DNA of 44,865 bases from Chitinivibrio alkaliphilus ACht1 (GTDB lineage: Bacteria; Fibrobacterota; Chitinivibrionia; Chitinivibrionales; Chitinivibrionaceae), in assembly GCF_000474745.1 (NCBI RefSeq), contig NZ_ASJR01000017.1:1-44865 (forward strand). Direction: 5' to 3'. Within the stretch, counting starts at the first letter, position 1; each line of letters begins with the position of its first letter. This document shows positions 15,400 to 44,721 of this stretch, in pieces. Made by a program: the position numbers and the translations under genes. The notes under the pieces are model-generated. The model had not been told where the DNA came from. It worked only from the letters and a program-made list of their open reading frames with translations, and searched no databases.

Positions 15400-15448
15400 A
15401 GTTTCCCCCATATAACATATAATGTTTGTTTTATTCTTCAATAAGTTT

Positions 15449-16681: not shown

Positions 16682-16695
16682 ATTCAAACTCTCCC

Positions 16696-21032: not shown

Positions 21033-22380
21033 TATCACCCTCCCTTACCAACTGCTTAAAACGGTTTCCCCGCGCAATATAGTTGGGAAAAAGATCGAAG
21101 CTCGAACAGCCCGGAGAAAGCAGCACAACCTCTCCTGAATCAGCCATATTCGACGCCGCATGGAAGGCCTCTTCCATGGTAGAATACAGATGAGTAGGAG
21201 CGACATTATTCCAGTGGGTATACATCGTTCTCCCTGCTTCACCAAATAGATATAGTGAAATGGAACGGCCCCTTATAGCTTTGGCAACCTGTTTAAAATC
21301 ACCACCTTTGAACCGCCCCCCCGCAAGGAGATGTATCTTCTGACCAGGGAATCCAGACAGGGCGGCACATACCGAGTCGAAGGTTGTTGACTTTGAATCA
21401 TTAATATAGGTAACCCCCCTCACGGCAGTAACTCGTTCCATGCGGTGCGGAAGTCCGTGAAAGTTCGTAACAACCGACTCAAAGATATCACCGGGAACAC
21501 CGTGAAGATAGGCTGCAAGAGCAGCGGCACAATAATTATCCTCATTATGAACTCCAGCAAGAGGAGCACCTTCCACAGACGCATAGAATGTTTTTTCACC
21601 TTCAGAAGTAAGAAAATATATGCGTGATTTATGTACATACATACCGGATTTTTCAGATGGAACGTCTCCAAAGTAGTATACCCGGTGGTTTACGAGGCTA
21701 TTGCCCAGGGTAACCAACCGCTCCTGCCGACCTGAAAGAATCACCGCCCCGTCTTTTTCAGTCATGGTAACAACTCGCTCTTTGAGCTGTGCATACTCTT
21801 CAAAACTACTGTGCCGATCAAGATGATTAGGGAAGATATTTAAAACCATCGCCATGGAGGGGCAAAACTGTGCAACCCACTCCATTTGGAATGTGCTCAC
21901 CTCACAAACCAAAATCCCCTCTTGCCCTGACTCCTCAACGGCATCAGTAAGCGGATATCCGATATTTCCACAGGCCGGACTTGCTGGATAAATAGTTTCT
22001 AAAAGCTTTGAGAGAAGACTGGTCACGGTACTTTTTCCTGCAGACCCCGTAATGGCAATAAGCGGGAGCGTGCTGCGTGATGCGCCAAATTCCAGCTCTC
22101 CGACAAGGGGAATGTGGGCCTCTTGTAGTTGCGTACATATGGGAGCATCAACAGGAATCCCCGGTGAAATAACGGCTTGAGATGCCGTAAAAACAGCAGC
22201 ACTATGCCCACCCGCTTCCCAGGTGCAGCACTCGACAATACCAGCATCTGTTAACCGGGTACGAACCACCTCCACAGAAGCTGTATCACTGAGAATATGA
22301 GGTATGCCGTGATGTACGCAATATCGTGCAACAGCGCAGGCGCTTCTCCCGCTTCCAATAATGGCAATCTTTTTTGACAT
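21019..22380 (-). CDS. murD: UDP-N-acetylmuramoyl-L-alanine-D-glutamate ligase MurD
   Basis: 453 residues from the ATG at 22380 (GGAGAGG eight bases upstream). MurD adds D-glutamate. Seen: IAIIGSGRSACAVA at the N-terminus, ITGSAGKSTVTSL (P-loop), NIFPNHLDRHSSFEEY and NDSKSTTFDSVCAAL plus LLSPGCSSFDLF, which are MurD-specific. It directly follows murF with 2 bases between the murF stop and this ATG, leaving no room for mraY, which usually sits here. Overlaps ftsW by 14 bases. Confidence 0.97.
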   Translation of the reverse strand: MSKKIAIIGSGRSACAVARYCVHHGIPHILSDTASVEVVRTRLTDAGIVECCTWEAGGHSAAVFTASQAVISPGIPVDAPICTQLQEAHIPLVGELEFGASRSTLPLIAITGSAGKSTVTSLLSKLLETIYPASPACGNIGYPLTDAVEESGQEGILVCEVSTFQMEWVAQFCPSMAMVLNIFPNHLDRHSSFEEYAQLKERVVTMTEKDGAVILSGRQERLVTLGNSLVNHRVYYFGDVPSEKSGMYVHKSRIYFLTSEGEKTFYASVEGAPLAGVHNEDNYCAAALAAYLHGVPGDIFESVVTNFHGLPHRMERVTAVRGVTYINDSKSTTFDSVCAALSGFPGQKIHLLAGGRFKGGDFKQVAKAIRGRSISLYLFGEAGRTMYTHWNNVAPTHLYSTMEEAFHAASNMADSGEVVLLSPGCSSFDLFPNYIARGNRFKQLVREGDNGTS

Positions 22381-22382
22381 AC

Positions 22383-23783
22383 TCACACCTCTCCCGTAAG
22401 AAAAGGAATTAGGGTTTCTAACTCACTTGCACGAGACCCTTTTAATAAGATTCGATCTCCCGGCGCAAGCAACTGGGGCGCTGCTGTAATAAAAGCATCT
22501 TTACTGGCAAAACAGTGGCATACTTCTTGATCCATCCCTGCCATCATCGCGCCTTCACAAAGGGCAGCACCGAACTCACCGATATGGATAATTACTTCCA
22601 TCCCATATTCAGCCGCCGCTGCACCGCAGTTTCGATGTAAGGAGTCACTATACGCTCCTAATTCTGCCATGTCACCGCTAATACTCACCAAACGCCCCGA
22701 AGGCGCAGGCATGTCATGCATCATCTGAAACGCCGCGTTCATAGACGAGGGGTTTGCATTATAGCAGTCTAGTACCAATGTATATTGCCCTGTGTTTCGG
22801 ACTTCTCCCCGAAGGGGAGCAGGACGCAGGGTTGCTAAGACACTACGAACCATATCAGAATCAACCCCCATGGATTCTGCAAGAGCAAGAGCAGGAAGCA
22901 TGGCATACACAAAATGTCGTCCCGGCAAAGGGATATGAAAGTCCTCTCCATGATAGGTAAATCCATAGGTGCCTTCGGAAGTACAATAGACATTTTCAGC
23001 GCGTAAAGAAGCCGCCTCACTGGTTCCAAAGGTACACATTGTAAGCCCGGCATATGCACTATGACGCATTTGCTCCATACTATGAGAATCATCCCCATTA
23101 ACGTAGAGTACGCCTTGATGAAGCCCTAAGACCTCAGCCAGCTCAAATTTTGCAGCAGCAGTCTTTTCTATTCCTCCAAAACACCCGACGTGAGCATACC
23201 CAATATTAGTAATTATCCCCATATCAGGCTCAAGAATTTCTGCAAGATCAAAGATTTCTCCGCCGTGGTTTGCGCCAAGTTCAAATACAGCTAAGTCCTC
23301 ATGTCCTGTAAGACGAAGAATGGACAGGGGAAGCCCAATGTGGTTATTCCAATTACCTTCTGTTCCCCCCACGCGATAATTTTGCTCTAATATGGTGCGT
23401 AGAAACCGAGCTGTCGTAGTTTTTCCGTTTGAGCCGGTAATTCCGATACAGGGAATATCAAGATATCGACGATATGCACGGGCTGCTGCACTCACCGCCT
23501 CAAGGGGATTATGAACAAGCAAAACACGATCTCGGAACGCCCCTGGTATTTTTTCCAGAGAAGAAACAATGGCAGCACACGCCCCCTGCTCCAAAGCAGT
23601 AACCACATAGTCATGTCCATCACGTTCTTCACCGGGCAGGGCAAGAAAGAGATCTCCCGGAGTAATCTTTCGTGAATCCATCCAAATATCAGGTAAAGAA
23701 CGGGCTCCCAAAGAGGAAACAATTTCCCTTTCTACGCCCATCCACAAAGCAAAATCAGAAATAGTTACAGGACGTGAACTCAT
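22383..23783 (-). CDS. murF: UDP-MurNAc-tripeptide-D-alanyl-D-alanine ligase MurF
   Basis: 466 residues from the ATG at 23783, which overlaps the murE stop as ATGA and has GGAGG seven bases upstream; the longer frame to 23807 is not favoured. MurF adds D-Ala-D-Ala. ITGSNGKTTTARF is the P-loop, and VFELGANHGGEI, DCYNANPSSMNAA and GDMAELGAYS are MurF signatures. Complete. Confidence 0.97.
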   Translation of the reverse strand: MSSRPVTISDFALWMGVEREIVSSLGARSLPDIWMDSRKITPGDLFLALPGEERDGHDYVVTALEQGACAAIVSSLEKIPGAFRDRVLLVHNPLEAVSAAARAYRRYLDIPCIGITGSNGKTTTARFLRTILEQNYRVGGTEGNWNNHIGLPLSILRLTGHEDLAVFELGANHGGEIFDLAEILEPDMGIITNIGYAHVGCFGGIEKTAAAKFELAEVLGLHQGVLYVNGDDSHSMEQMRHSAYAGLTMCTFGTSEAASLRAENVYCTSEGTYGFTYHGEDFHIPLPGRHFVYAMLPALALAESMGVDSDMVRSVLATLRPAPLRGEVRNTGQYTLVLDCYNANPSSMNAAFQMMHDMPAPSGRLVSISGDMAELGAYSDSLHRNCGAAAAEYGMEVIIHIGEFGAALCEGAMMAGMDQEVCHCFASKDAFITAAPQLLAPGDRILLKGSRASELETLIPFLTGEV

Positions 23784-25255
23784 CGACGCGCCTCCAGTCG
23801 TTGCCATGCACGGCTCACTTCTTCACGATCATCAAAATGATACTTTTTAGTACCAATTTCTTGATATGTTTCATGTCCCTTCCCGGCAACCAAGACAACA
23901 TCTTCATCTCCTGCCTTGTCTAAGGCCGTCTCAAGAGCAATTCGTCGATCCTCAATCATCTTGAACGGAGCATCTGCTGGAACACCATCTGCAATATCCC
24001 GGAGGATACCCGCAGGATCTTCTGTTCGGGGGTTATCACTCGTAATAATCGTATAATCGCTGTAACGGGCTGCCACGGCGCCCATGCGAGGACGCTTGCC
24101 CCGATCCCTATCGCCGCCAGCACCGAAAACAAGGATGAGGCGTCCCTTTGTCAGTTTTCGTACGGTGGTAAGAACATTCTCCAAGGCATCGGGCGTATGT
24201 GCATAATCTACCACAACTTGAAATGACGCAGCTTCCAGGGTAACTTTTTCCATTCGTCCAGGAACCGGTTCCAGCTGATCAAACACCCTTTGGATTAGCG
24301 CTGAAGAATACCCCTGGAGCAAGAACGCTCCCGCAGCTGCCGTAAGATTATACACCGTAAAGTCTCCCGTAAGAGGAGAAGAAAAGGGTATTGTCTCTCC
24401 CCGGAAGGAAAGACGAAAAAACACTCCATCCCAGCTACTATGTTTTTCGGTAATAGAGAAATCAACTTCGGCAGTACATCCGTAGGTATATACAGCGCCA
24501 GATAATTCTTTGGCAAGCCGTTTTCCATAGGGATCATCCCTATTGATCAATGCATACCCATCACTCTTTAGGTGATGGGTAAAAAGTGTCTTTTTCGCCT
24601 GAAAATACGATTCCATGGAGTCATGGAAATCTAAATGATCTTGGGTAAGATTTGTAAACAGGGCAATATCAAAGAGAATACCTCGAACCCGCTGAAGAGA
24701 CAGGGCATGAGAAGAAACCTCCATGACAAGAGCCTCGGGAGCAGGATCTGCTGTACCAATTTCGCGAGCAAGATCAACAAACTCTGGTGTTGTACGTCCC
24801 GTATCAACATACCGTTCTCCATACCAGTTTCCAAGCGTACCAATCTGCCAAACTGTTGATTGTGAAAAGTGGGAAACGCACAAAGCGCGCAGCACCGTTG
24901 CAATGGTTGTTTTTCCGTTAGTACCTGTCACGGCAAAGCTCTTCATGGAAGAAAAATCAATCGACCAAAGCTTTTTGGCAACGTCTGCCATGGCTGCACG
25001 AACATCCGTAACGGTGACCCAGCCATGGGTACACCCCTCAGGGCATGATCGTTCCGAAAGAACCGCCACAGCCCCCTTTGCTCGAGCATCAGAAATGTAG
25101 TCATGCCCATCACAGGAAAAGCCCGCAATGGCAACAAAAAGTGTGTCGGGAACAACCCTGCGCGAATCATAGGTAATGGAACGAATATCTACTCCGTCCA
25201 TATTATGCACAGCAAGAACAAATTCATTCGTTTTCAGAAAAGTATCTATCTTCAT
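23780..25255 (-). CDS. murE: UDP-MurNAc-L-Ala-D-Glu meso-diaminopimelate (or lysine) ligase MurE
   Basis: 491 residues from the ATG at 25255 (GGAG upstream; TTG at 25270 possible). MurE adds the third peptide residue. VTGTNGKTTIATVLR is the P-loop; MEVSSHALSLQRV, FTNLTQDHLDFH and VDYAHTPDALENVL follow. The substrate loop contains SDNPRTEDPAGI; the DNPR motif is the one associated with meso-diaminopimelate specificity, so DAP peptidoglycan is likely. Overlaps the ftsI end by 32 bases. Confidence 0.97.
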   Translation of the reverse strand: MKIDTFLKTNEFVLAVHNMDGVDIRSITYDSRRVVPDTLFVAIAGFSCDGHDYISDARAKGAVAVLSERSCPEGCTHGWVTVTDVRAAMADVAKKLWSIDFSSMKSFAVTGTNGKTTIATVLRALCVSHFSQSTVWQIGTLGNWYGERYVDTGRTTPEFVDLAREIGTADPAPEALVMEVSSHALSLQRVRGILFDIALFTNLTQDHLDFHDSMESYFQAKKTLFTHHLKSDGYALINRDDPYGKRLAKELSGAVYTYGCTAEVDFSITEKHSSWDGVFFRLSFRGETIPFSSPLTGDFTVYNLTAAAGAFLLQGYSSALIQRVFDQLEPVPGRMEKVTLEAASFQVVVDYAHTPDALENVLTTVRKLTKGRLILVFGAGGDRDRGKRPRMGAVAARYSDYTIITSDNPRTEDPAGILRDIADGVPADAPFKMIEDRRIALETALDKAGDEDVVLVAGKGHETYQEIGTKKYHFDDREEVSRAWQRLEARR

Positions 25256-27191
25256 ACTCTTTTTCTCCAAATAATGTACATACGGGCGCTCCTTGAATCA
25301 CTTCTCCTGCCGTAGGAGATTGAGCAACCACTGTTCCACGTCCGGAAAAGTAGGGGGTAATCCCCTCTAGGCTCAGGGTATTTATCGCATCTTTCATGGA
25401 TCGTCCAACACAATTGGGCATCACCTGAATATCCGTATCTTCAAGAGACGTGCTCGTAAAGAGAAGCACGGGGCTATTATCGATAATCCTACTTCCAGCT
25501 TTGGGAGTTTGATTTACAACAAATTCACCGTTTCCAACAAATTCAAAGGAAATCTCCTTTTCAAGACATGCAGATACAGCTTCACTTCGTGTTTTGTCCT
25601 GTAGATCTGGATAGGTTCGTACAGAACGCGGAGCGACCGAAGCTGTTGCATCATCCCAGTCACGTAACCCGTAATCAAGATTAGGAGAATGGGCAATACG
25701 GGTAAAGATATCTGCCACTGCCGGAGCAGCCACAGCCCCACCTCCCTTTGCATCTTTAGGTTCATCCACCACGACAGCAGCCACCAGGCGAGGCTCATCC
25801 ACCGGTGTCATGCCCACAAAGGATGAGAGCACCTTATCGGTACTGTACAAACCCGTTTCAGGATCAATTTTTTCACTTGTCCCCGTTTTACCCCCCATGG
25901 TCGTTACATCATAGGTTGCCCTTCGGGCTGTACCGTGTGTTACCACTCCTTCTAAAATCTGCCGCACCTCATAGGCTGTCTGCGGAGAAATAACCTGGCG
26001 AAGTACCGTCGTATCTGCCGTACGCACCACCTCACCATTTTGATCGTTTATGGTATGAAAAATACGGGGACGTACTAAATATCCACCATTTGCAATGGCA
26101 TTTGTCGCCGTGACTAACTGCAATAAGGTCGCTGAGAATTCATGTCCAAAAGAGATTGTCGCGGGAGTTCGCCCAGACCATGTATTATACGGTCGAACAA
26201 CCCCTCGCTCTTCTCCCGGAAGGACAATGCCGGTTCTGCTGCCAAATCCAAAATCAGTCAGATACTGATACATTCTCTCTCGTCCAAGAGAATCTCCGAT
26301 TTGGGCAAAACAGACATTACTTGAATACCAAAAGGCCTCTTCAAGAGAAAGTGTGTCAAAGGGACGGTGATCACGGATTACTTCACCATAAATCTCAAAG
26401 ACCCCCTGCCGTCCGTCAAGACTGTCCCCAGGAGCATACAACCCTTCTTCTAAAGCAGCGGCAAGGGTGAGTGTTTTAAAGGTAGAACCTGGTTCATAAC
26501 TTACTGAAATAGGAAGATTTCTCCGATCTTCTCCAGAAAACATCCACCAATATCCCGGATTAAACCCATTATCAGATGCCATGGCAAGAACATCTCCACT
26601 ATGGGGCTCCATAACCACCGCAAAAGCTCTTTTGGCTTCATAGGTCGTGCACACCTGAGCAAGAACATCTTCCACAATGGCCTGTATCTCCGTGTCAAGG
26701 GTAAGACGAACATCCATCCCATCTATGGTGGGCATGCTATCTTCTCCGAGAATCTGAAAGAGTCTCCGCTGCCCATCATATCGATATCGACTATACCCCG
26801 ACTCACCGGAAAGATAGTGATTAAAGCTGTATTCAACACCACCCCAGCCCTTATCACGGCCAGTCCATCCAATTACAGGAGAAGCAAGATTTGCATAATT
26901 ATAAATGCGATTTACATATATCTCACCCTGATCAATTGCCTCCTCGGCAATGCGAACACGAACATTCCGATCCAAGCTTTTTGCCAAGACCCGTCCATTT
27001 CTATCAAGGACTCTCCCCCGACGCGGCTCAAGGACAATACGAGCAGAGGTTTGATTTTGAATAATTGCAGAAAACTCATCACTTCGTACTATCTGCATAT
27101 TAAAAAGATACGACAGGACAACAACAGCGTAGATACACAAAAGAATCTGTGTACTCTTTAAACGCCGTGATACTCCTTGATCGAGGGTCAT
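25224..27191 (-). CDS. ftsI: septal transpeptidase FtsI (PBP3) with C-terminal PASTA domains
   Basis: 655 residues, class B penicillin-binding protein, the septal transpeptidase. One membrane segment (about 14-33) is followed by RRGRVLDRNGRVLA. The transpeptidase motifs are STFK (SxxK), SSN (SxN, in FWYSSNVCFA) and KTGT in MGGKTGTSEK. Two PASTA-like repeats occupy about 530-650 (YPDLQDKTRSEAVSACL and MPNCVGRSMKDAINTL). PASTA modules are common in Spo VD/PBP2x-type FtsI and less so in proteobacteria. ATG overlaps the ftsL stop. Confidence 0.96.
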   Translation of the reverse strand: MTLDQGVSRRLKSTQILLCIYAVVVLSYLFNMQIVRSDEFSAIIQNQTSARIVLEPRRGRVLDRNGRVLAKSLDRNVRVRIAEEAIDQGEIYVNRIYNYANLASPVIGWTGRDKGWGGVEYSFNHYLSGESGYSRYRYDGQRRLFQILGEDSMPTIDGMDVRLTLDTEIQAIVEDVLAQVCTTYEAKRAFAVVMEPHSGDVLAMASDNGFNPGYWWMFSGEDRRNLPISVSYEPGSTFKTLTLAAALEEGLYAPGDSLDGRQGVFEIYGEVIRDHRPFDTLSLEEAFWYSSNVCFAQIGDSLGRERMYQYLTDFGFGSRTGIVLPGEERGVVRPYNTWSGRTPATISFGHEFSATLLQLVTATNAIANGGYLVRPRIFHTINDQNGEVVRTADTTVLRQVISPQTAYEVRQILEGVVTHGTARRATYDVTTMGGKTGTSEKIDPETGLYSTDKVLSSFVGMTPVDEPRLVAAVVVDEPKDAKGGGAVAAPAVADIFTRIAHSPNLDYGLRDWDDATASVAPRSVRTYPDLQDKTRSEAVSACLEKEISFEFVGNGEFVVNQTPKAGSRIIDNSPVLLFTSTSLEDTDIQVMPNCVGRSMKDAINTLSLEGITPYFSGRGTVVAQSPTAGEVIQGAPVCTLFGEKEYEDRYFSENE

Positions 27192-27553
27192 TCTAAGGGC
27201 CGTAAGAGCTTTTCAAAAAAATCCCTGGTGCTACTCCGCCTGCTCGTTTCCTGCGAAGATCTCTCACGTCGAACATAGAACGTATTTTCCATGGTCGCCT
27301 CTTCTAAATCGTCAAAGAGAGCACGATACTCCCCCAGTCTTCGCGGGTGTGTCAAGTGAGAAATTTCAACCCCCATGGCAGCAATACGGCTTTGCAACTC
27401 TCGAAGCTCTTGCCGAAGAGTTATCTCTTCGCGAGTCAACACATGGGCACGCCCTTCCTTCCAAACAGAACCTACGAAGGGAACCAACACCACCCCACAC
27501 CAAAAAAACGCCGTCACCACGGCACGGAATACTCGCAGGGGAAGAACCATCAT
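27188..27553 (-). CDS. ftsL: FtsL-like division protein
   Basis: 121 residues: short cytoplasmic tail, one membrane segment (about 9-28), then a leucine-rich helical stretch with heptad character (LRQELRELQSRIAAM). This is the FtsL/FtsB layout and the position between rsmH and ftsI is the usual ftsL site. Sequence conservation in the family is low, so the call rests on topology and context. The tail after residue 85 is charged and Ser/Arg-rich. ATG overlaps the rsmH stop. Confidence 0.78.
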   Translation of the reverse strand: MMVLPLRVFRAVVTAFFWCGVVLVPFVGSVWKEGRAHVLTREEITLRQELRELQSRIAAMGVEISHLTHPRRLGEYRALFDDLEEATMENTFYVRRERSSQETSRRSSTRDFFEKLLRPLE

Positions 27554-28479
27554 ACCCGCACCCCTCCCCGTAATTTAGCACTTCGAGCACGGCTATTACG
27601 CGCAATTTCTTCCGACGATGCAACCACGGGCTTGCGTGTAAGGGCTCGCATCCGAGCATTGTTTCCACCACAAGTGCATACAGGTACATGGGCAGGACAA
27701 TGACAGCTTTTTTCTGCAGAACGAATAAAGTTTTTTACAATCCTATCTTCCAGAGAGTGGTAAGAAATCACCGCAATGCGACCTCCGGGAGAAAGATAGT
27801 GAAGAGAATGTTCTAAAACCTGCCGCAACTCAGCAAGCTCATCATTTACTTCTATACGAAGGGCTTGAAAAATCTTGGAAAGCGCCTTGGGAGAAATACG
27901 AGGATACTCCTGTTCAAGCAAGGATACAAACTCCCCCGTGGTATGTACAGGCATGGTTTTGCGATACCGACAAATGCAATCTGCCATTTTGGCAGCTCCA
28001 CGCACTTCTCCATATTCACGAAGAATCGTACCTAACTGCTTTTGACTATATTCAGAGAGGACCGTTTCCGCAGAAAGGGGGCTCGACCGATCCATCCGCA
28101 TATCAAGGGGGGCATCCATACGATAACTAAACCCGCGGGGCCCCGCGTCAAACTGATGAGATGATACGCCAAGATCAAGGAGAATCCCCGATACAGAAGA
28201 AATTTGTAAAGAGTGCAGTGTTTCGGGAAAATCCTTAAAACAGCGCTTATCAAGATGTACTGATTCAATCTGTTCTTCCTTCAGTCGTCGCGAAACCTCC
28301 GCAAGGGCATCTTCGTCACGATCGATACCAATCACCATCCCCTCACTCCCCATAGCACGGGCCATGGCAAGGCTATGTCCTCCGCCGCCGAGTGTTCCAT
28401 CGAGAAAGACTCCGCCCGAAGCAACATCGAGTAGCTCCAGACACTCCGGAAGAAGCACAGGGGTGTGATATCTACTCAT
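27550..28479 (-). CDS. rsmH: 16S rRNA (cytosine-1402-N4)-methyltransferase RsmH (MraW)
   Basis: 309 residues from the ATG at 28479 (MSRYHTPVLLPEC), with GGAG seven bases upstream; the frame open to 28545 overlaps mraZ too far and lacks family similarity. RsmH methylates C1402 in the decoding centre. Signatures: GTLGGGGHSLAM (SAM site), GIDRDEDAL, LLDLGVSSHQFD, GFSYRMDAPLDMRMD and ISYHSLEDRIVKNF. It overlaps the mraZ stop by 8 bases. Confidence 0.97.
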   Translation of the reverse strand: MSRYHTPVLLPECLELLDVASGGVFLDGTLGGGGHSLAMARAMGSEGMVIGIDRDEDALAEVSRRLKEEQIESVHLDKRCFKDFPETLHSLQISSVSGILLDLGVSSHQFDAGPRGFSYRMDAPLDMRMDRSSPLSAETVLSEYSQKQLGTILREYGEVRGAAKMADCICRYRKTMPVHTTGEFVSLLEQEYPRISPKALSKIFQALRIEVNDELAELRQVLEHSLHYLSPGGRIAVISYHSLEDRIVKNFIRSAEKSCHCPAHVPVCTCGGNNARMRALTRKPVVASSEEIARNSRARSAKLRGGVRV

Positions 28480-28915
28480 GTTCAAACTCCGCAGCTGCTG
28501 AATAAAAAAGCTCATCAAAATCCTCGGTATCCTGCACGAGGGCATCAGGATGAATTACTTCAATAAAATCTCCCATGCCTACGAGGGCCACCTTCGACGC
28601 TGTCCCTACATGGGATAACTGTTTTCCTGAAATGGTTATCCGTCCTTGCGAATCAATCACGGAGTCAGTCATAGAACGATACACCATGGAGTAATACTTC
28701 AGATTCTTCGGAGTTTTGGGTAAACGAGCCAGTTTTTCGGCCTCTGCTTGCCAAACATCTTCAGGGTAAATCCAAAGTGCGTTATTGGGGGCCATACGAA
28801 TGTACAAGGTTGTGTCGGAACAGGAATCAATGGAACGACGAAACTTTGCCGGCACGTTAACACGCCCCTTAGAATCTACAGAGTATTCATACGTTCCAAT
28901 AAATCGATTTATCAC
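28472..28915 (-). CDS. mraZ: transcriptional regulator MraZ
   Basis: 147 residues from the GTG at 28915 (MINRFIGTYEYSVDSKGR); the open frame reaches 28939 but that would put the operator repeats inside the gene. MraZ is an AbrB-like, ring-forming repressor of the dcw cluster. Both half-domains show the DNA-binding motif: VDSKGRVNVPAKFR near the start and IDSQGRITISGKQL near residue 82. It is the first gene of the cluster, with its own triple-box operator immediately upstream. Confidence 0.95.
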   Translation of the reverse strand: MINRFIGTYEYSVDSKGRVNVPAKFRRSIDSCSDTTLYIRMAPNNALWIYPEDVWQAEAEKLARLPKTPKNLKYYSMVYRSMTDSVIDSQGRITISGKQLSHVGTASKVALVGMGDFIEVIHPDALVQDTEDFDELFYSAAAEFEHE

Positions 28916-35197: not shown

Positions 35198-35851
35198 TCA
35201 TATAAATTGAAATCGTTCATGGACTTCCCGATCCGTTTTTGCTAATATACGTTCCTTCAACAAAGATGGAAAGAAATATATCTGCTGAGAAAGCAATTCC
35301 AAATCATGGGGGGTGTGAATATACACGGTCTTAGCTGGAGAAAGAAGACGAACACAACGATTTCGCAGCTCCATTGGATACGGAGGGGCTGAAGAAGACA
35401 AGGCAGAACACATGTCATCTGTAAATACAAGAGCAACAAGGCTACGATTCTTTTGTGCCTGCTCTATCTTATACAAAATATCAGCAGCAAGACAGGAGAA
35501 AGTACCAGCCAAAAAGAAAAAGGAGGTAAGACTACCTTCATGAGCGTCCAAAAAAGCGGAGATCTGATCATAAACTCTATTCCCGAGCGCTTCTTCTCGC
35601 AAAATACGATACACCGAACTCTGAGATACCCGATACCGTCGAGCAATCTTCTCCACCGACAACCCTTGTCGATACAACAAACGGATATGTGTATTCCTTC
35701 CGGCAAACGAGCGCTCATAGGCAGGGATACCATACTTTTTACGTAATTTATAAATTGCCTGTCGTGTAACCCCATAAAATTCCGCAATTGCAGCATCGGT
35801 ATGATACTTTTTTTGTAGAGAAAGTAACTGCTCACGTCCAATTCTATTCAC
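35198..35851 (-). CDS. unknown protein with two helix-turn-helix motifs
   Basis: 217 residues from a GTG at 35851 (GGGG six bases upstream, overlapping the rel stop); ATG at 35863 is an alternative without a ribosome binding site. Two homeodomain-like HTH motifs stand in tandem near the N-terminus: AAIAEFYGVTRQAIYKLRKK and VEKIARRYRVSQSSVYRIL, the pattern of resolvase/transposase-type DNA-binding heads. The remaining 120 residues (about 95-217) are unrecognised, include SFFFLAGTFSCLAADIL and LVALVFTDDMCSAL, and end RFQFI. No catalytic motif of a recombinase is visible. Probably a DNA-binding regulator; target unknown. Confidence 0.6.
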   Translation of the reverse strand: MNRIGREQLLSLQKKYHTDAAIAEFYGVTRQAIYKLRKKYGIPAYERSFAGRNTHIRLLYRQGLSVEKIARRYRVSQSSVYRILREEALGNRVYDQISAFLDAHEGSLTSFFFLAGTFSCLAADILYKIEQAQKNRSLVALVFTDDMCSALSSSAPPYPMELRNRCVRLLSPAKTVYIHTPHDLELLSQQIYFFPSLLKERILAKTDREVHERFQFI

Positions 35852-38003
35852 GTCCAACCCCATCCACCAAGGGACGAGACACTTTGCTTACTCCCGGAAT
35901 TTTGCGCAGGTTCCGCTTTACGGTAAAGAGTGCTTCCGTGTTAAAAACTTTTAATGTAAGTTCAACATACAGCTTTGCCCCTTCAACACGATATTCCAAA
36001 AACGAGATTTCCAACTTATGGTTCTCCACCAGAGAAATCACATCTTTTAAAAACACTGGATTATCATGGGCTTCCAAGGAAATTCGCGATGTGCTCGATT
36101 CCCCTTTTTTGGTATCCTCCCACACAAGAGAAACAGCGCGGAGAGGGTCATCTTTAAACAGAGACGCCGTGGGACAGTCTGTACGATGCACCGCAATTCC
36201 TCTTCCATGGGTTATAAAGCCGACAACATGATCTCCCGGTATGGGGTGACAACACGGTGAAAACCGAATCATCGTACTTGGCATACGACGAATAACAAGA
36301 CTTTTCCGGCCTTCCCGCCGAATAGAGTCAATCTCATCAATGGCCTGTTTCTGTGTCACTGTTCGACGGGTGATAAATGTAATAATCTCGCTGGAGAAAC
36401 GAGATTTTTCAGCCACAGCAATAAACAGCTCATCCTCTGATTGAAAATTAAACTCTCGCAAGACTTCCGGTAGGTAGGTTTCCAGATTTTCACGCAAATG
36501 GAGTTTTCCATACTCCCGGAAAAGAAGTTGCTTGCCTATGGACAAACGGTCCTTGCGCTCTACTTTTCGCAACCAGCGTTTTATTTCAGAGCGTGCACGG
36601 GGAGTGCGAACATCATTAAGCCACTCCACGTTTGGTTTACGTTCAAAAGAGTGCAGAACTTCCACTAAATCACCATCGTAGAGTTCTTGATCAGGCTTTT
36701 CAATATGACCATTTACCTTTGCACCAATACAGTGCAAGCCGATATCGCTATGTATTGCAAAGGCAAAATCCATTACGGTAGCACCCTTTGGCAAAATAAT
36801 CTTTTCGTTCTTCGGTGTTCTGACAGAAATATCACGCTGTTTAATATCAATCTTAAAAAACTCAAAGAACTCCGTCGAATCTGAGAGTTCTTTCTGCCAT
36901 GACACGAGGTTACGAAGCCATTTTACGGCATTACTCTCTCCAATGGGACTATCTTTATACCGCCAATGTGCCGCCACCCCTTCCTCTGCTTGATAATTCA
37001 TCTCTACGGTACGAATTTGTATCTCTACAATGTTCCCATCAAAGCCTGCAACGGTCGTATGAATAGACTGATATCCGTTTGACTTGGGAGAGGCAATGTA
37101 GTCTTTCAACTTATACGGAACAGGCTGCCATAAACTGTGAACAACCCCCAATAAACGGTAGCAATCATCAACACTATTGCAGATTAAGCGTATGGCAAGA
37201 AGATCAAAAATCTCATTATACGGGATATTCCTATTTTTATTTTTTTTGTAAATACTGTAGTAGGTTTTGCTCCTGCCAAATACCTCTGCCTCAATACTCT
37301 GCTTTTGAATCTTATCTTCAAGGATGGACCGTAATTTATGAATTAAAACCTGACGTCGAGATTCACTTTCGGAGATCTTCTCCACAACCTCATGATATTC
37401 TGCAGGATACAAGTGCTTAAAAGCAAGATCCTCAAGTTCTGACTTTACATTTCCCATGCCGAGACGAAGGGCGAGGGGGACATAGATATCAAGGGTTTCC
37501 CGGGCAATACGCTCTTTTTTCTCTTGCGCCATATACCGAAGCGTTCTCAGATTATGTAAACGATCGGCAAACTTTATCATAATAACGCGTACATCCTCAG
37601 CAGCGTTTAAAAGAACCTTACGGTATGTTTCAACTTTTCGAAAGTGCTTATCCTCTTCATGAACAGAGGTGAGTTTTGTGACGCCATCTACAATACGAGA
37701 TACGGAAGCCCCGAAGCACGTTTCAATATCCCCGGTATTAACACTCGTATCTTCCACCACATCATGCAGCAGGGCTGCAATAACCCCGGTTGTTCCCATA
37801 CCTTGCTCTGCACAAATAAGGGACACCTCCATGGGATGAATAAAATAGGGTTCACCAGACTTTCGCAACTGGCCCTCATGAGCATCCCAAGAATAGGTAA
37901 AGGCATGAGAAACACGGTCAAAATCAAGATCAGGACTCAAAGACTTGAGCCGATCAAGATATTGCGTTTTGGCAATCCGAGCATTGGAGAAGTCAAGATT
38001 CAT
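35844..38003 (-). CDS. rel: bifunctional (p)ppGpp synthetase/hydrolase Rel
   Basis: 719 residues from the ATG at 38003 (GGATGAG upstream). It makes and degrades the stringent-response alarmone. The HD hydrolase domain is intact (LLHDVVEDT at about 79-87, FADRLHNLRTL). The synthetase domain shows FDLLAIRLI, DYIASPKSNGYQSIHTTV and EIQIRT. A TGS domain (ISVRTPKNEKIILPKGATV) and a C-terminal ACT domain follow. It is the only Rel/SpoT homologue in the window and looks fully bifunctional. It overlaps the coiled-coil gene end and the HTH gene start, so the three are likely co-transcribed. Confidence 0.95.
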   Translation of the reverse strand: MNLDFSNARIAKTQYLDRLKSLSPDLDFDRVSHAFTYSWDAHEGQLRKSGEPYFIHPMEVSLICAEQGMGTTGVIAALLHDVVEDTSVNTGDIETCFGASVSRIVDGVTKLTSVHEEDKHFRKVETYRKVLLNAAEDVRVIMIKFADRLHNLRTLRYMAQEKKERIARETLDIYVPLALRLGMGNVKSELEDLAFKHLYPAEYHEVVEKISESESRRQVLIHKLRSILEDKIQKQSIEAEVFGRSKTYYSIYKKNKNRNIPYNEIFDLLAIRLICNSVDDCYRLLGVVHSLWQPVPYKLKDYIASPKSNGYQSIHTTVAGFDGNIVEIQIRTVEMNYQAEEGVAAHWRYKDSPIGESNAVKWLRNLVSWQKELSDSTEFFEFFKIDIKQRDISVRTPKNEKIILPKGATVMDFAFAIHSDIGLHCIGAKVNGHIEKPDQELYDGDLVEVLHSFERKPNVEWLNDVRTPRARSEIKRWLRKVERKDRLSIGKQLLFREYGKLHLRENLETYLPEVLREFNFQSEDELFIAVAEKSRFSSEIITFITRRTVTQKQAIDEIDSIRREGRKSLVIRRMPSTMIRFSPCCHPIPGDHVVGFITHGRGIAVHRTDCPTASLFKDDPLRAVSLVWEDTKKGESSTSRISLEAHDNPVFLKDVISLVENHKLEISFLEYRVEGAKLYVELTLKVFNTEALFTVKRNLRKIPGVSKVSRPLVDGVGRE

Positions 38004-38007
38004 ACAA

Positions 38008-40620
38008 TTACTCATCCACAAGACGGGACTTTTCTTTTTTCAACTCCCGAAGTTTCGATTCTACCTCGCCCAGAAGAAACTTCAATTCGGCAGTTTTCTC
38101 TATGGCCGACAAGATCTCCTCTTCATCCTCTTTCAAATTTGTAATTTGAGCTCGAAGATCACCCACCAGAAGCTCAAGATTATTATATTTTTTCTCCGCT
38201 TCACGGATCACCTGTTCCTTATCGTCGAGGACGGAAATACGCCCCTCAATATCCTGAAGAACTCCCATGGCGCTATCAGAGCTTTTCTTTATTGAAGCAA
38301 TCTCTTCAGCTTTATTTTCTATATATTCCATATCGGAGTTCAGTATTGTCAGCACTTCGTGGAGTTTTTCAATTTCTTTGTTCGCCTGTTCTATGCGTTC
38401 AAATCCCTCATCGATACTTGATATTCGATACTCAATATCACTCACCACGGTTTCCACAGAATCGATACGCTGGTCCACCGTATCAATACGGCTGGAACGA
38501 AGTGATATCTGTTCCATTTCATGACGAAGATCGGCAAGCATCTCTCCCACACGAGAGACACGTCCTTCTGCTTCCTGAATATACGACTTCTGTTTATCTA
38601 TTTTACGAAGCTCTTCCTGGTGCACATCCAACATCTCCTGAAAGCGCTTTTCTGAGAGTGTGATCTTTCCCTCAAATTCACTAATCTGCTTTTGAAAATT
38701 ATCAAGCCCCCGCTCTGAGTCACTCATCAAGGCAGTGATGGTATTACTCATTTCACTGAGTTTTTCCTTTTCCCGATCGATAACCAACTTTTCCTGACGA
38801 AGGTTGTTCAAAATATTCTGTGCTTCAATGGAGTGTCCCGAGAGCGTTGAAATTTTCTGTTCAACCTTAGAGACATTTTCACGTTCACGATCAATTACCT
38901 GAATTTTCATATTAACATCGCCCAACAGATAATTCAGCTGGTCAAGACGCTTCTCTGTCTTTTCAACCATGCTTTGTCGCTCAAGCTGCTGTTCAATACG
39001 GGAGTCAATATCCTCAACCATCAAATCAAGGCTGTCTATTTTTCGACCAACCTCATCAACGGCAGATGATTTTTCATTCACCATATGTATACGATCACGC
39101 ACAGAATCGGATATAATCTGTAGCTCATCAAACCGTGCTGAAAGTGCAGACAACTCTTGCTCCCGTTCAGACAGCTCTAAGGTTTTTCTGTTGAGCTTAT
39201 CCTCTTTCTTTTCCAATTCAAGACTTATCTCAAAGAGGTCGTCCATCTTCTTCTGTATATGATCCAGCTCTTCACTGCGTGAGAGAATTTGCCGTTTTTC
39301 TTTTTCCACAGCACTGATTTTTGAATCGAGGAACTGAATACGGCTCTCCAAACCGGCTAATTCATCAATGCGAGACTCATATCGTTTCAAATCCCCATCA
39401 AGATTATTAACCCGATCAGAGATTTCGTCATACACAGATAACTCATTTTCTGTATTTTTGATACGCTGTTCAACACGATCAAGATTCTTTTCATATTCAA
39501 GAATCTTTGCACGACTTTCATCAATACGCTCTTTATGCTTAATAATTGTATCCGCCGTGGCCTTGGTATTTTTCGCCACGTCAAATACTTCATGAATTTC
39601 CTGTTTCACCGACTCAACATGGCTACTCTTTTCAAGGATCAAGTCAACCTTTTGATCGAACTCTTCACGAATGGTGTCAACATTAGCAATCTTTGCACGG
39701 GATTGCTCAAAGAATTTCCGAAACTTTCGCACCTCATCAATCGCATCACGACTGTCGTAAAACAATGAGTCTAAGCGAGAGATATTTTTATCGATACTGG
39801 TAATTTTATCCTGTTTTTCTTCAAGATGTTTTAAATCGCTCTCTAAACGCCACGTCAAGGTATTAAGCTGGCCATTCATCTCCGTGGCCTTTTCCACCAC
39901 AACCTGCTGCCGTTTCAACCCCTTTATCTTTCCATCAATATGCTCCACCAAGGCATGAAGCTGTTCGGTTTTCTCTCGGGTCAACTTATACTGATCAACC
40001 TCATCCTTTAACACCTCAAGCTGACTTTTTAACATGTCAGCCTGGCCCCGACCACCGGCAAGAATACGCTCTAACTCATCCTCTTTTCGAGTAAGCTGCT
40101 TATGCCTATTTCCACATTCCTCAAGCCCCTCGGAAATTTCTCTATAGGTTGATTCAACTGCGTATAATCTTTCCAGAAAGGTTTTTACAACGCCCTCAGG
40201 ATCTTTATCTTCAGAAAGCAACATCGTTAGTTTTTCTACAGAAGAAGCAAGATGAATATCCTCTTGTTTAATATCATCCATACGGTGTTCTAACTCTGTA
40301 AACTCCTGCTTCATTTCGTCCATGGCTGTCGCCATTTGAGAAAGTTGTGTTGATTTTGTATCCCACCGCGTCAACTCTTCACGAATATTTTTGAGGCACA
40401 GGGTTATCTCTTCCTTATTTTTCTGAAAGTCAGCAAGGGTTCCTTGGGCTTCACGTGCATTTGAAACATACTCACCCAGCTCGTCAAGAAGTGGTAACAA
40501 CTCCTTTCGCTCTGCTAAAAAGCTATCATAAAACGACTCAAATCGCTCAATCTCCCGAGCTAGTGTATCCGCTACAACCGCCGGATCTTTCATATTTTTC
40601 TTAAAAAAATCAGAAATCAC
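38008..40620 (-). CDS. 870-residue coiled-coil protein built of 31-residue repeats
   Basis: No membrane segment, no signal peptide, no P-loop: the chain is almost entirely charged helix with hydrophobic heptad-like positions. The start is a GTG at 40620 with AGGAG seven bases upstream. From residue 182 to the end a 31-residue unit repeats: each begins with a pattern like xLxxxLxxL (for example SLDLMVEDI 530, QLNYLLGDV 561, NLELLVGDL 814, ELKFLLGEV 845). Units start at 182, 213, 244 and so on to 461, then 499-592, then 628-845; only two spacings differ (38 and 36). Such a rod of about 100 nm suggests a cytoskeletal filament or scaffold; crescentin- or CfpA-like roles are only analogies. It lies between an L,D-transpeptidase-like gene and rel. 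Confidence 0.85.
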   Translation of the reverse strand: MISDFFKKNMKDPAVVADTLAREIERFESFYDSFLAERKELLPLLDELGEYVSNAREAQGTLADFQKNKEEITLCLKNIREELTRWDTKSTQLSQMATAMDEMKQEFTELEHRMDDIKQEDIHLASSVEKLTMLLSEDKDPEGVVKTFLERLYAVESTYREISEGLEECGNRHKQLTRKEDELERILAGGRGQADMLKSQLEVLKDEVDQYKLTREKTEQLHALVEHIDGKIKGLKRQQVVVEKATEMNGQLNTLTWRLESDLKHLEEKQDKITSIDKNISRLDSLFYDSRDAIDEVRKFRKFFEQSRAKIANVDTIREEFDQKVDLILEKSSHVESVKQEIHEVFDVAKNTKATADTIIKHKERIDESRAKILEYEKNLDRVEQRIKNTENELSVYDEISDRVNNLDGDLKRYESRIDELAGLESRIQFLDSKISAVEKEKRQILSRSEELDHIQKKMDDLFEISLELEKKEDKLNRKTLELSEREQELSALSARFDELQIISDSVRDRIHMVNEKSSAVDEVGRKIDSLDLMVEDIDSRIEQQLERQSMVEKTEKRLDQLNYLLGDVNMKIQVIDRERENVSKVEQKISTLSGHSIEAQNILNNLRQEKLVIDREKEKLSEMSNTITALMSDSERGLDNFQKQISEFEGKITLSEKRFQEMLDVHQEELRKIDKQKSYIQEAEGRVSRVGEMLADLRHEMEQISLRSSRIDTVDQRIDSVETVVSDIEYRISSIDEGFERIEQANKEIEKLHEVLTILNSDMEYIENKAEEIASIKKSSDSAMGVLQDIEGRISVLDDKEQVIREAEKKYNNLELLVGDLRAQITNLKEDEEEILSAIEKTAELKFLLGEVESKLRELKKEKSRLVDE
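38011..40077 (-). repeat. protein-level 31-residue (93-base) tandem repeat
   Basis: About 21 successive 31-residue units within the coiled-coil gene, counted by hand from the translation and consistent with the total length. They are diverged in sequence, keeping hydrophobic positions near 2, 5-6, 9, 13, 16, 23 and 30. 31 equals four heptads plus three residues, so each unit would contain one stammer. Confidence 0.8.
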
Positions 40621-40635
40621 ATTATACTCCTCTCA

Positions 40636-41883
40636 TTATTGGACAGACACCTCGCTGACAATCCGCCACGAACCATCTCTCTTTAAAAGGTCTAACCGCT
40701 TCCTGCTTACAGAGCGGAAGACTTCTGACTCATAGGTTTGATTAAAAACAAGCGACACGGTTGTATCTGTCATGTTTTTCACTTCAGGAGAGTCAACCTG
40801 TATTTCAATACGATCATAGCGTTCAAAGGTACTCTGTTTATGAGCAATCCACGACTCCCAGGTATGTCCCGGCACGTCTAAGTTCTTCGCATCATAAAAG
40901 GGGGCATATACTGCTGTATCCATGGACTCCCATGCCTCTTTCCATGAGTCAACGTAGGAAACAAAAAAAGTGTGTAGAGAATCCTTGCGTTCCTGTTGAG
41001 CGATGGCATTTTCCCGTTCCTGCACAAGATACGTGCGTTCTGCCATGATATTCTCAAGGTCAACACTTTCCTCAAAATTGAGGCCGCCATTTTCATGAAT
41101 CAACACAGGTATCAGCTCGTGCCCATATATTTTATCGTACAGTTTTTTAAGGTTATCATTATGAACAGCCAAACAACCTCGAGTACTAACGGGAACTTCA
41201 TCAGGGGTTGTCCCGTGAATCCAAATACCACTCCCTGTACGACCCGCCGCAATATCGTGGCGATTCGGGTAATTTAAAACAAAGGAGTACGGCCCATATA
41301 TTTCGGCTGATGACCCGTACCGTTTATACAACTCTTCATCTGATTTTTTTTGGATAATGAAGTAAATACCTTGAGGAGTGCGAAGATCACCCTCATACAT
41401 TTTCATACCCGGACGCGACCCCGATGCTACAGGAAATGTTCGCGTATGATTCCAAAACAAACCATCACGCTGGAGAACATGTAATACACGATCGTTCTTA
41501 TCCGCTACGAGAATATATGAGAAATCTTCACCCATACTTCTAAAGCCAGTGCGTGTAATACCACCCTCTTGAGATGAATCCAGAGACGTGTCTACAGGAG
41601 TATCGTCCACCTGCTCCTCCCGGTCGTCATGAGAAGACACCCCGTTCTTCTCCACCCTGTTAGCATCTACCTGTCTCTCACCAACCGTGGAAAATAGGAA
41701 TAGTGCCACAGAAACAAAAATACCGGAGAGAACAATAAAGGCGCCCAGTGCAAGAAAGACCCGTCGTATCAAAAGAGGACTTTGCTCATAAGCACTGCGA
41801 ATACGCCATTTATCAATGGTGGTCCGAACATGGTTCTCAAATCTCTTTGCTCGAAGGAGCATTCTACGAATCATACTTTCCAT
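40636..41883 (-). CDS. membrane-anchored YkuD L,D-transpeptidase-like protein with C-terminal NTF2-like domain
   Basis: About 415 residues (ATG 41883 or GTG 41886; neither has a strong ribosome binding site). A basic N-terminus and one membrane helix (about 41-65) are followed by a Ser/Asp/Glu linker. The YkuD domain (about 120-258) has the catalytic pattern HGTTPDE-VPVSTRGCLAV with the His and Cys in place, plus GDLRTPQGIYFI, as in the YafK/ErfK group that forms L,D-crosslinks or attaches proteins to peptidoglycan. The C-terminal 120 residues (SYVDSWKEAWESMD, YAPFYD, DGSWRIVSE) look like an NTF2/SnoaL-type fold. It lies directly upstream of the coiled-coil gene, with 15 bases between. Confidence 0.85.
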   Translation of the reverse strand: MESMIRRMLLRAKRFENHVRTTIDKWRIRSAYEQSPLLIRRVFLALGAFIVLSGIFVSVALFLFSTVGERQVDANRVEKNGVSSHDDREEQVDDTPVDTSLDSSQEGGITRTGFRSMGEDFSYILVADKNDRVLHVLQRDGLFWNHTRTFPVASGSRPGMKMYEGDLRTPQGIYFIIQKKSDEELYKRYGSSAEIYGPYSFVLNYPNRHDIAAGRTGSGIWIHGTTPDEVPVSTRGCLAVHNDNLKKLYDKIYGHELIPVLIHENGGLNFEESVDLENIMAERTYLVQERENAIAQQERKDSLHTFFVSYVDSWKEAWESMDTAVYAPFYDAKNLDVPGHTWESWIAHKQSTFERYDRIEIQVDSPEVKNMTDTTVSLVFNQTYESEVFRSVSRKRLDLLKRDGSWRIVSEVSVQ

Positions 41884-41947
41884 CACCGACGTATCTCTAT
41901 CCTTTCCACGTATTCACTTTGTACAGCAGTATACTATATTATGTTGT

Positions 41948-42585: not shown

Positions 42586-44721
42586 ATGAAAAAACACAGG
42601 ACGCTTTTGACTTTAGAACTACTTGGGTATGCCTGCGCTTACGTCTTTGTCCTTTTTTGGGGAGGTGAAATATTCCCCGAACCCACAGATCTTATGAGCT
42701 ATCTTTTTCTGGGGCTTTCCAGCGTAACAGTGTTAAGCAGTATTACCCTTTTAATAATGTGGACACGAGCCATGGACTCCATGAGAGCCGTTGGGATAAC
42801 CTCAGTACTCCTCCTCCTCTTTTATACAAACTCAACCTATACATGGCCTGTAAACCCACATATTGCACTCTTTTTTACACTTTTTCTCATCTATTCTTCG
42901 CGAGGAAATGTGAAAGTCTGGCTGTTCTCTCTCTTTTTTACAATCCTGCTTTTTGCCCATCTTCTTGGACAAACACCACCGCTTACTGCAGTAGATACGA
43001 CAACCCTTGCAGGCTTTTCACTCATATTTTCTTTGGGTTCTTTTTTGTCTTCTTATTTCACTCTCAGAGAACAGCGTATTGAGCACGACATTACTACCAA
43101 GGAAGAGGTCTTAAAAAGTAGAAAAACCCTTTCTGATGAAGCAGAAGAGCTTCTCCAACAGCAACAAAGCAGTTCAGAATCAGAAACCCCAGAGTTTGAC
43201 ATTAGTAAAGATGAAAATCTTAAAGACCTTATTTCCAAAGAAATGGACTACGTTGTTTATTTTGTAGAACGGATCTTTCATCCTCACTCAACTATCGCCT
43301 TTATCCATGACGGTACAAATTCCGAGAATAAAAAAACCCTCTCCATATACTCTGCAAAATCTAAGGGCATGAACATAGACAGCACCTGCACGATAGTGGA
43401 AGGAGAAGGTATTATCGGTGAGGTAGCTAAGACCAAACAACCCTTCATTAGCGGAAATTTAACTCTCTATAGTAAAGATATTGGATATTACAAGGGTAAT
43501 GAGGCAATTCAGTTTCTTGTGGCGGTCCCCATAATTTCAAGAACAAACCGTTTTCTCGGTGTTCTTGCCATTGACTTTCGTGAAAAAAGCATCTTTCGCG
43601 AACATCACAAAGACGCTATTCATCGATTTGCAAAAATAGCGGCAAGTCTTTTAACCAATATTCATCTACGTAAAAAAGAACAGGAAAATGCTGCCCGGTT
43701 CCATCTATTCTATGAAACCTCACGAAGTATCTCGAGTACAAATAACAATATAGAAATTTTAAAACATGTCCTTCGGGCAATAAAGAAAACAGGCCCCATT
43801 TTCCGTACTGCTGCAGTAGCCTATTTCCCTGAAAGCAACACCTGTCAGATTATTGCCGTTGATTGCGGAAACCGCGAGATAATAAAAGGGTTTAGTTTCC
43901 CCGCTTCAAATTCTATTATCGCATCAACCCTGACAAAAAATGCCATAGAATATGTCTCTGACTACTTAGAAATTCGAGAGGCAACACCTGTCTATGCAAA
44001 GGGAGAAATGCTTAATAAGCAAATTCGTTCGATCCTTGCAATCCCCTTTAAAAACACAGGAACAAATTACAAGCTTGCCGTTATTGCTGAAAGTACAGAA
44101 AAAGGAATATTCAATGAACGGGCCTATCGTGACAATATTAACATCTTGGTCAAGAACGGCAGTACGGCCTACGAAAAAGCGATACTCTATCAGCAAATGC
44201 AATTGCAAGCAACAACCGACGGCCTCACGGGATTGGTTAACCACCGAACCTTTCAAGAGCATCTTCATGAGCATATTCTGAGAAGCCACCGCTATGAACG
44301 AAAGCTCTCTTTACTCCTTATGGATATTGATCACTTTAAAGATTTCAACGATACCTATGGACACCAAATCGGTGACCTTGTCTTAAAAACTATTTCCAAG
44401 TGCCTTAAAAAGAGTGTCCGCTCAAGTGATTTGGTTGCCCGATACGGTGGGGAAGAATTTGTTGTAATACTTCCAGAAACAAATATACCTAATGCGGAAA
44501 AGATGGCAGAACGTATTCGTGTGAACATTGAAAAGCAACGAATCTCCGTGGAAGAGAAACAATTAAGTGTCACCGTAAGTATTGGTGCCGCAACCCTGGA
44601 TGAACACGCATCCTCACAGTCAAAACTCATAGAAGCGGCTGATGCTGCTATGTATCATTCAAAACGGAATGGAAGAAACCAGGTTACCGTGTTCGAGGAC
44701 GGTATGGAGCCACAGTCATGA
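42586..44721 (+). CDS. diguanylate cyclase: membrane domain, two GAF-like domains, GGDEF
   Basis: 711 residues; GGTAGGAG precedes the ATG. The first 165 residues hold about six membrane helices. Two GAF-like regions follow (about 215-365, with GIIGEVAKTKQPFISG and VLAIDFREK; about 375-535, with IRSILAIPFKN). The GGDEF domain (about 545-705) has DGLTGLVNHRTFQEHL, LLMDIDHFKDFNDTYGHQ and the active-site GGEEF near residue 620. The inhibitory site RSSD stands exactly five residues before GGEEF, so product inhibition is expected. It makes c-di-GMP at the membrane under control of the GAF sensors. The next gene is a PilZ protein. Confidence 0.95.
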   Translation: MKKHRTLLTLELLGYACAYVFVLFWGGEIFPEPTDLMSYLFLGLSSVTVLSSITLLIMWTRAMDSMRAVGITSVLLLLFYTNSTYTWPVNPHIALFFTLFLIYSSRGNVKVWLFSLFFTILLFAHLLGQTPPLTAVDTTTLAGFSLIFSLGSFLSSYFTLREQRIEHDITTKEEVLKSRKTLSDEAEELLQQQQSSSESETPEFDISKDENLKDLISKEMDYVVYFVERIFHPHSTIAFIHDGTNSENKKTLSIYSAKSKGMNIDSTCTIVEGEGIIGEVAKTKQPFISGNLTLYSKDIGYYKGNEAIQFLVAVPIISRTNRFLGVLAIDFREKSIFREHHKDAIHRFAKIAASLLTNIHLRKKEQENAARFHLFYETSRSISSTNNNIEILKHVLRAIKKTGPIFRTAAVAYFPESNTCQIIAVDCGNREIIKGFSFPASNSIIASTLTKNAIEYVSDYLEIREATPVYAKGEMLNKQIRSILAIPFKNTGTNYKLAVIAESTEKGIFNERAYRDNINILVKNGSTAYEKAILYQQMQLQATTDGLTGLVNHRTFQEHLHEHILRSHRYERKLSLLLMDIDHFKDFNDTYGHQIGDLVLKTISKCLKKSVRSSDLVARYGGEEFVVILPETNIPNAEKMAERIRVNIEKQRISVEEKQLSVTVSIGAATLDEHASSQSKLIEAADAAMYHSKRNGRNQVTVFEDGMEPQS

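Follow-up and report, generated by a model that had tools for sequence, protein, structure and literature searches.

The window, by which we mean the whole 44,865-nucleotide stretch of Chitinivibrio alkaliphilus ACht1 DNA, encodes a long coiled-coil protein, here called the rod, that is built on a strict period of 31 residues and whose gene sits in a conserved operon with that of an L,D-carboxypeptidase-type wall enzyme. The two proteins are very probably linked in function. We propose that the rod acts in the cytoplasm as a coiled-coil scaffold associated with the membrane and cooperates with the carboxypeptidase, most likely in setting cell curvature, a reading that we hold with moderate confidence.

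The 31-residue repeat of the rod protein

The rod gene (38008..40620, minus strand) encodes 870 residues from a GTG start to a stop codon at 38008-38010, and the stretch singled out in the earlier note is the C-terminal four fifths of this ORF. It is preceded by a ribosome-binding site (GAGAGGAG, 40627..40634, minus strand), which in homologues reads AGAGGAG in the corresponding position ahead of an ATG, and it opens with a short hydrophobic and lysine-containing N-terminus (residues 1-13, MISDFFKKNMKDP, 40582..40620, minus strand). The repeats that follow form two blocks, also on the minus strand: residues 189-622 (38755..40056) hold 14 exact units of 31 residues, and residues 659-870 (38011..38646) hold about seven. 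Between them lies the sole irregular unit, 36 residues long (623-658; 38647..38754, minus strand). In a single register the units of block 1 start at 189, 220, 251 and so on to 592 and 623, and those of block 2 at 659, 690 and on to 845, each 31 apart. Two odd spacings had been claimed for the repeat; the one of 36 was confirmed, whereas the one of 38 (461 to 499) turned out to be a slip of one heptad, the first ten unit starts of the earlier note sitting 7 residues early relative to the single register.

The strict period reported in the earlier note is real and exact, and hydrophobic and identity autocorrelation, a cyclic profile and Fourier analysis all agree on it. Autocorrelation of the translation, the check suggested at the time, gave a peak at 31 and not at 7 or 11 only: among lags 1-129 of the window rod protein, lag 31 had the highest hydrophobic autocorrelation (0.391; shuffle SD 0.035, maximum of 2000 shuffles 0.119), with harmonics at lags 62, 93 and 124. 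Residue identity also peaked at lag 31 (14.4% versus 7.7 +/- 0.9% in shuffled sequences, maximum 10.8%). When a cyclic profile that could jump register freely was fitted, period 31 was best (log-likelihood -334, compared with -384 for 38, -407 for 24 and -429 for 28) and also beat all remaining periods tried. The period is kept in homologues at 20-41% identity, all of which show 31/62, and the mean autocorrelation of 21 homologues peaks at 31 (0.59), 62 (0.55) and 93 (0.49).

The Fourier peak fell at 3.445-3.446 residues, or 31/9, in both repeat blocks. The repeat had been described as four heptads plus a stammer, and the arithmetic of that description holds, with nine hydrophobic layers per 31-residue unit at 3.445 residues per layer, but the heptad signal itself was nil: Fourier power in the rod at 3.5 was 0.5 and 0.1, against 81 and 41 at the peak. 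The core spacing is 31/9 = 3.445 and not the 3.5 of an ordinary heptad coiled coil. In state order, the repeat consensus is hydrophobic at 0, 3, 6/7, 10, 14, 17, 24 and 27 with a single polar core layer near 21, basic at 13 and 30 (57-62% K/R), and acidic around 1, 8, 9 and 25; the charge autocorrelation likewise peaks at lag 31 (0.186). By standard coiled-coil geometry, the left-handed winding of a 31/9 rod would be tighter than usual and its axial repeat 46 Angstrom, and if fully extended the rod would be about 100-130 nm long. AlphaFold predicted the rod monomer to be nearly all helix with the first dozen residues disordered, at low confidence (pLDDT 67, pTM 0.24).

Residues 196-868 (673 columns) align over 21 sequences with zero indels, at 22-41% identity to the window. 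A 31/9 rod free of indels across 673 residues is an unusual design for a natural coiled coil. The most conserved stretch, residues 554-574 (KTEKRLDQLNYLLGDVNMKIQ, 38899..38961, minus strand), and the conserved C-terminal unit, residues 839-856 (AIEKTAELKFLLGEVESK, 38053..38106, minus strand), are nearly invariant in the family, and both are versions of the repeat. At the DNA level, no repeats past chance-like short matches were found in the rod gene, so the repeats are old and diverged. The near-all-helix prediction, the charge peak at lag 31 and the indel-free conserved register favour the earlier suggestion that the protein is a filament or long scaffold whose surface is regularly patterned.

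The rod locus and its phylogenetic distribution

Directly upstream of the rod lies a gene for an L,D-carboxypeptidase-type enzyme (40636..41886, minus strand), predicted to be membrane-anchored. Members of this enzyme family combine a single membrane helix with a YkuD domain (motif HG...(S/T)xGC) and an NTF2-like domain of the Csd6 type. In the window, a cytoplasmic N-terminal tail of about 45 residues with an xxAY motif (IRSAY) precedes the predicted membrane helix (41752..41886), followed by the YkuD catalytic domain with its IHG...STRGC active-site motif (41125..41517) and the C-terminal NTF2-like domain (Pfam Cds6_C; 40651..40959), all on the minus strand. Against the PDB, the enzyme profile matched over both domains 7O21 (E=3.6e-62) and 4XZZ (1.5e-44), which we take to be Bd1075 and Csd6, and 6XJ6 (Pgp2; 1.2e-34), while ordinary YkuD proteins matched at 1e-4 only. 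Among solved structures these are its nearest relatives, and we class the enzyme, by homology, as an L,D-carboxypeptidase of the Csd6/Pgp2/Bd1075 type, with which it shares both domains (E from 1e-34 to 1e-62). Bd1075 trims wall peptides on the convex side to produce vibrioid Bdellovibrio cells, and its loss straightens them (PMC8938487); the helical form of Helicobacter and Campylobacter cells depends on Csd6 and Pgp2, respectively (PMC4599014, PMC8038945). Unlike these proteins, the neighbour enzyme is predicted to be anchored in the inner membrane and has a conserved cytoplasmic tail and a rod partner, whereas Bd1075 carries a sec signal peptide and is encoded by a monocistronic gene.

The Csd6-type NTF2-like domain was also seen at the C-terminus of a secretin-like protein encoded elsewhere in this genome (L102, G000:C16, 3425-5794), in ORFs of about 1000 residues in several relatives, and in a tyrosine-kinase-like protein (L098) in G035.

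Directly downstream of the rod lies a RelA/SpoT homologue (35844..38003, minus strand), which probably starts at an ATG at 38003 (MNLDFS..., supported by a relative) and not at 38021 as in the ORF list. A divergent GAF-GGDEF gene (42586..44721, plus strand) often stands upstream in relatives too. The order enzyme, rod, SpoT was found in nearly all loci that were sufficiently long and intact, and it holds even in lineages at 20-24% rod identity. The rod start codon overlaps the enzyme stop in many relatives; in the window there is a 15-base gap. Elsewhere in the window, a division and cell wall (dcw) cluster (14005-28545, minus strand) contains mraW, a PASTA penicillin-binding protein, murE, murF, murD, ftsW, murG, murC, ftsA and ftsZ, with mraY not at its usual site between murF and murD, and an 844-residue ORF at the window's end (400-2934) had no Pfam match.

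In a scan of 84,980 species genomes a single-sequence query found no relatives of the rod and an alignment query did. All were in Chitinivibrionia/Chitinispirillia, other Fibrobacterota MAGs, one MAG labelled 'bacterium' and Candidatus Raymondbacteria. Within the Fibrobacterota, 37 of 168 genomes carry the rod: most genomes in the window's order, families f9 and f10, and 5 of the 6 genomes in one f11 genus, with none in the large family f8, which we take to be Fibrobacteraceae. Rod-negative species include members of genera g15, g19, g20 and g22, and G012. Homologues are mostly 770-890 residues long, with two termite-gut members of 682.

Most rods in the window's order begin with M[MI]FSxKK, just after the AGAGGAG ribosome-binding site. 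The 682-residue rods, which lack residues ~20-195, still keep this N-terminus as MAIFSK; the window's version is degenerate (MISDFFKK), and rods of f9, f10, f11 and genus g11 have no MFS-type N-terminus. The bactofilin membrane anchor has the consensus MFSKKKK, and crescentin's own anchor can be replaced by that of BacA (PMC12448750). The rod has no bactofilin domain and resembles bactofilins in this peptide only; through it the rod may bind the membrane. We also looked for MFSKKKK in the bactofilins of rod-bearing genomes; it was absent from the clearly read loci, but as most loci were not readable this counts neither for nor against the anchor.

The enzyme is present in all 37 rod-positive genomes, nearly always adjoining the rod, compared with 3 of the 131 rod-negative ones. 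These three (G001, G166 and G167) had a YkuD+NTF2 enzyme above the cut-off, and the remaining weak NTF2 matches that we inspected in rod-negative genomes were unrelated ORFs; in G158, a YkuD-type fragment beside SpoT is cut by the contig end, where the NTF2 domain could not be judged. Within the window's order, 30 genomes have both genes, 9 neither and 1 the enzyme only (Fisher p ~4e-8, uncorrected for kinship). On the SpoT tree, the absences over all labels need 5-7 separate changes, and in the window's order joint absence occurs at at least three separate places besides G038, a genome 68% complete whose lack of a rod was not counted as a secure loss. Adjacent genes can go in one event, so that each joint loss counts only in part as independent support for a shared function.

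The enzyme tail follows the rod as well. It spans about 35-60 residues before the membrane helix and carries (E/D)IxxAY or a close variant in all rod-positive loci with a complete N-terminus (IRSAY in the window, VRRAY/IRRAY in the 682-residue lineage, xxAF in f11), with Ala-Tyr conserved at 90% or more in rod-positive genomes. In G001 (L099, G001:C169), which has no rod gene, enzyme and SpoT lie about 40 bases apart and the enzyme lacks the tail; rod and tail are both present in its sister G003. The f14 enzyme of the rod-less G167 has a signal-peptide-like start and no tail. This pattern, behind which stand few rod-negative cases, fits a docking of the tail onto the rod.

A candidate curvature scaffold

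The rod shares a conserved operon with the carboxypeptidase, the two genes are found or missing together, and the N-terminus resembles a membrane anchor; these features make a shared role of rod and enzyme at the membrane likely. In the mechanism that we envisage, the rod would assemble into a filament along the cytoplasmic surface of the inner membrane, to which its N-terminal peptide would tether it. The enzyme would be an L,D-carboxypeptidase of the inner membrane whose active site faces the periplasm and whose conserved tail reaches into the cytoplasm; by binding this tail, the filament would gather the enzyme on one flank of the cell, and wall peptides would then be trimmed unevenly, giving curved growth of the vibrio or spirillum kind. 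Direct docking of the enzyme tail on the rod is a tentative proposal, and we are slightly more hesitant about the fuller picture, a dedicated two-part curvature module of Fibrobacterota in which a membrane-bound 31/9 filament docks the enzyme tail and directs the site of wall trimming.

Like crescentin, FilP and Ccrp, the rod is a long coiled coil, predicted to be cytoplasmic, with no globular or enzymatic domain, has a putative short N-terminal membrane anchor and occurs in curved bacteria, and by analogy it may work as crescentin-type filaments do, including by assembling into filaments. It differs from these proteins in its strict 31/9 repeat in place of heptads and in its operon with a wall enzyme, and no sequence relation to them was detected. 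A cytoskeletal polymer joined through membrane proteins to a wall hydrolase is likewise described for the CcmA - Csd5/Csd7 - Csd1 helical-shape complex of H. pylori (PMC9507126); its polymer, a bactofilin, is a beta-helix where the rod is a coiled coil, and the two have no homology.

The shapes of cultured taxa agree with the curvature reading: Chitinivibrio is a vibrio and Chitinispirillum a spirillum, whereas Fibrobacter, which has neither the rod gene nor the enzyme gene, is a non-motile rod-shaped cell (PMC4814513). Several observations weaken the curvature reading. G001 keeps the enzyme without a rod, all rod-positive genomes are also flagellated, and the putative MFS anchor is degenerate in the window and absent in f9, f10, f11 and g11. 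Very few of the genomes come from organisms of known cell shape, and the rod-negative members of the order need not be straight. In Bdellovibrio, the monocistronic Bd1075 acts without such a rod, and the sole Ccrp is dispensable for curvature; according to the same study, how a bacterium places a protein on one of its lateral walls has no known mechanistic basis (PMC8938487). If true, the curvature scaffold proposed here would be a direct link from an intermediate-filament-like cytoskeleton to wall editing and one answer to the one-sided placement of an enzyme. The co-occurrence of rod and enzyme, and the loss of the tail with the rod, open a cytoskeleton-guided mechanism to direct test in a phylum whose cell biology is hardly studied.

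Other explanations for the rod

Rod and carboxypeptidase might cooperate at the inner membrane for a purpose other than curvature, as an envelope-stress or growth-phase module acting through SpoT and (p)ppGpp or as a polar organiser, which we regard as unlikely but worth serious attention. The SpoT neighbour is conserved about as well as the enzyme, and a divergent GGDEF gene is commonly upstream; however, SpoT persists among unrelated neighbours in genomes without enzyme and rod, which rules out its dependence on the pair, and enzymes of this class are known as determinants of cell shape. A part in the flagellar or motility machinery, for example as a scaffold for a polar flagellum, would agree with the flagellin genes found in all 37 rod-positive genomes, and a link of the rod to a swimming lifestyle is possible. 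The flagellar role itself seems to us very improbable, as at least 27 flagellated genomes have no rod and no flagellar genes were recognised adjoining it. We give scarcely any weight to an SMC- or Rad50-like chromosome protein or other cytoplasmic tether: NCBIfam models of SMC and Rad50 matched weakly, but far below their cut-offs and over the coiled-coil arms only, and the rod has no ATPase heads.

As for its family, Pfam matches to the rod (baculovirus PEP, BLOC1_2, laminin II) were all below cut-off and were set aside as generic coiled coil, the rod profile matched nothing in the PDB beyond generic helices (those of chemoreceptors and a spike HR1 mimic), and our literature search on 31-residue or stammer coiled coils and curvature coiled coils found nothing recognisable as the rod. 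The earlier view that the rod belongs to no named family was nearly right: the NCBIfam model SpiroCoCo_C (NF047515) scores 160.3 bits over the whole protein against a cut-off of 125, and it matches 21 of 21 members of the rod family. SpiroCoCo proteins of spirochaetes are also long coiled coils, and a true fragment (L061) shares the 31-residue period. The score, however, is a sum over repeats in which single stretches reach about 61 bits at most; the profile matched at positions 2-238 only, its HTH-like end (~239-313, 75 positions) being absent from the rod and present in L061. The N model (NF047514) gave 72 bits against a cut-off of 75, and hhalign of the rod family with L061, a single 254-residue fragment, gave 28% probability. 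With a match to the repeat only, no HTH-like end and a weak hhalign result, we did not accept membership, and consider it improbable that the rod is a member or Fibrobacterota homologue of this family, of which no mention was found in the literature searched. The period common to the rod and L061 is nevertheless worth noting, spirochaetes being helical too.

L061 (G038:C115, 2-766) is a C-terminal SpiroCoCo fragment in a termite-gut Chitinispirillales MAG, perhaps on a contaminating spirochaete contig. The SpiroCoCo HTH-like end (VLQLNRRGYTPAEIARRTQLSEEQVETVI) also matches the last ~35 residues of unrelated membrane proteins (L062, 5993-6958; L063, 6279-7223; L064, 6484-7449; L065; L066) and is a widespread C-terminal motif.
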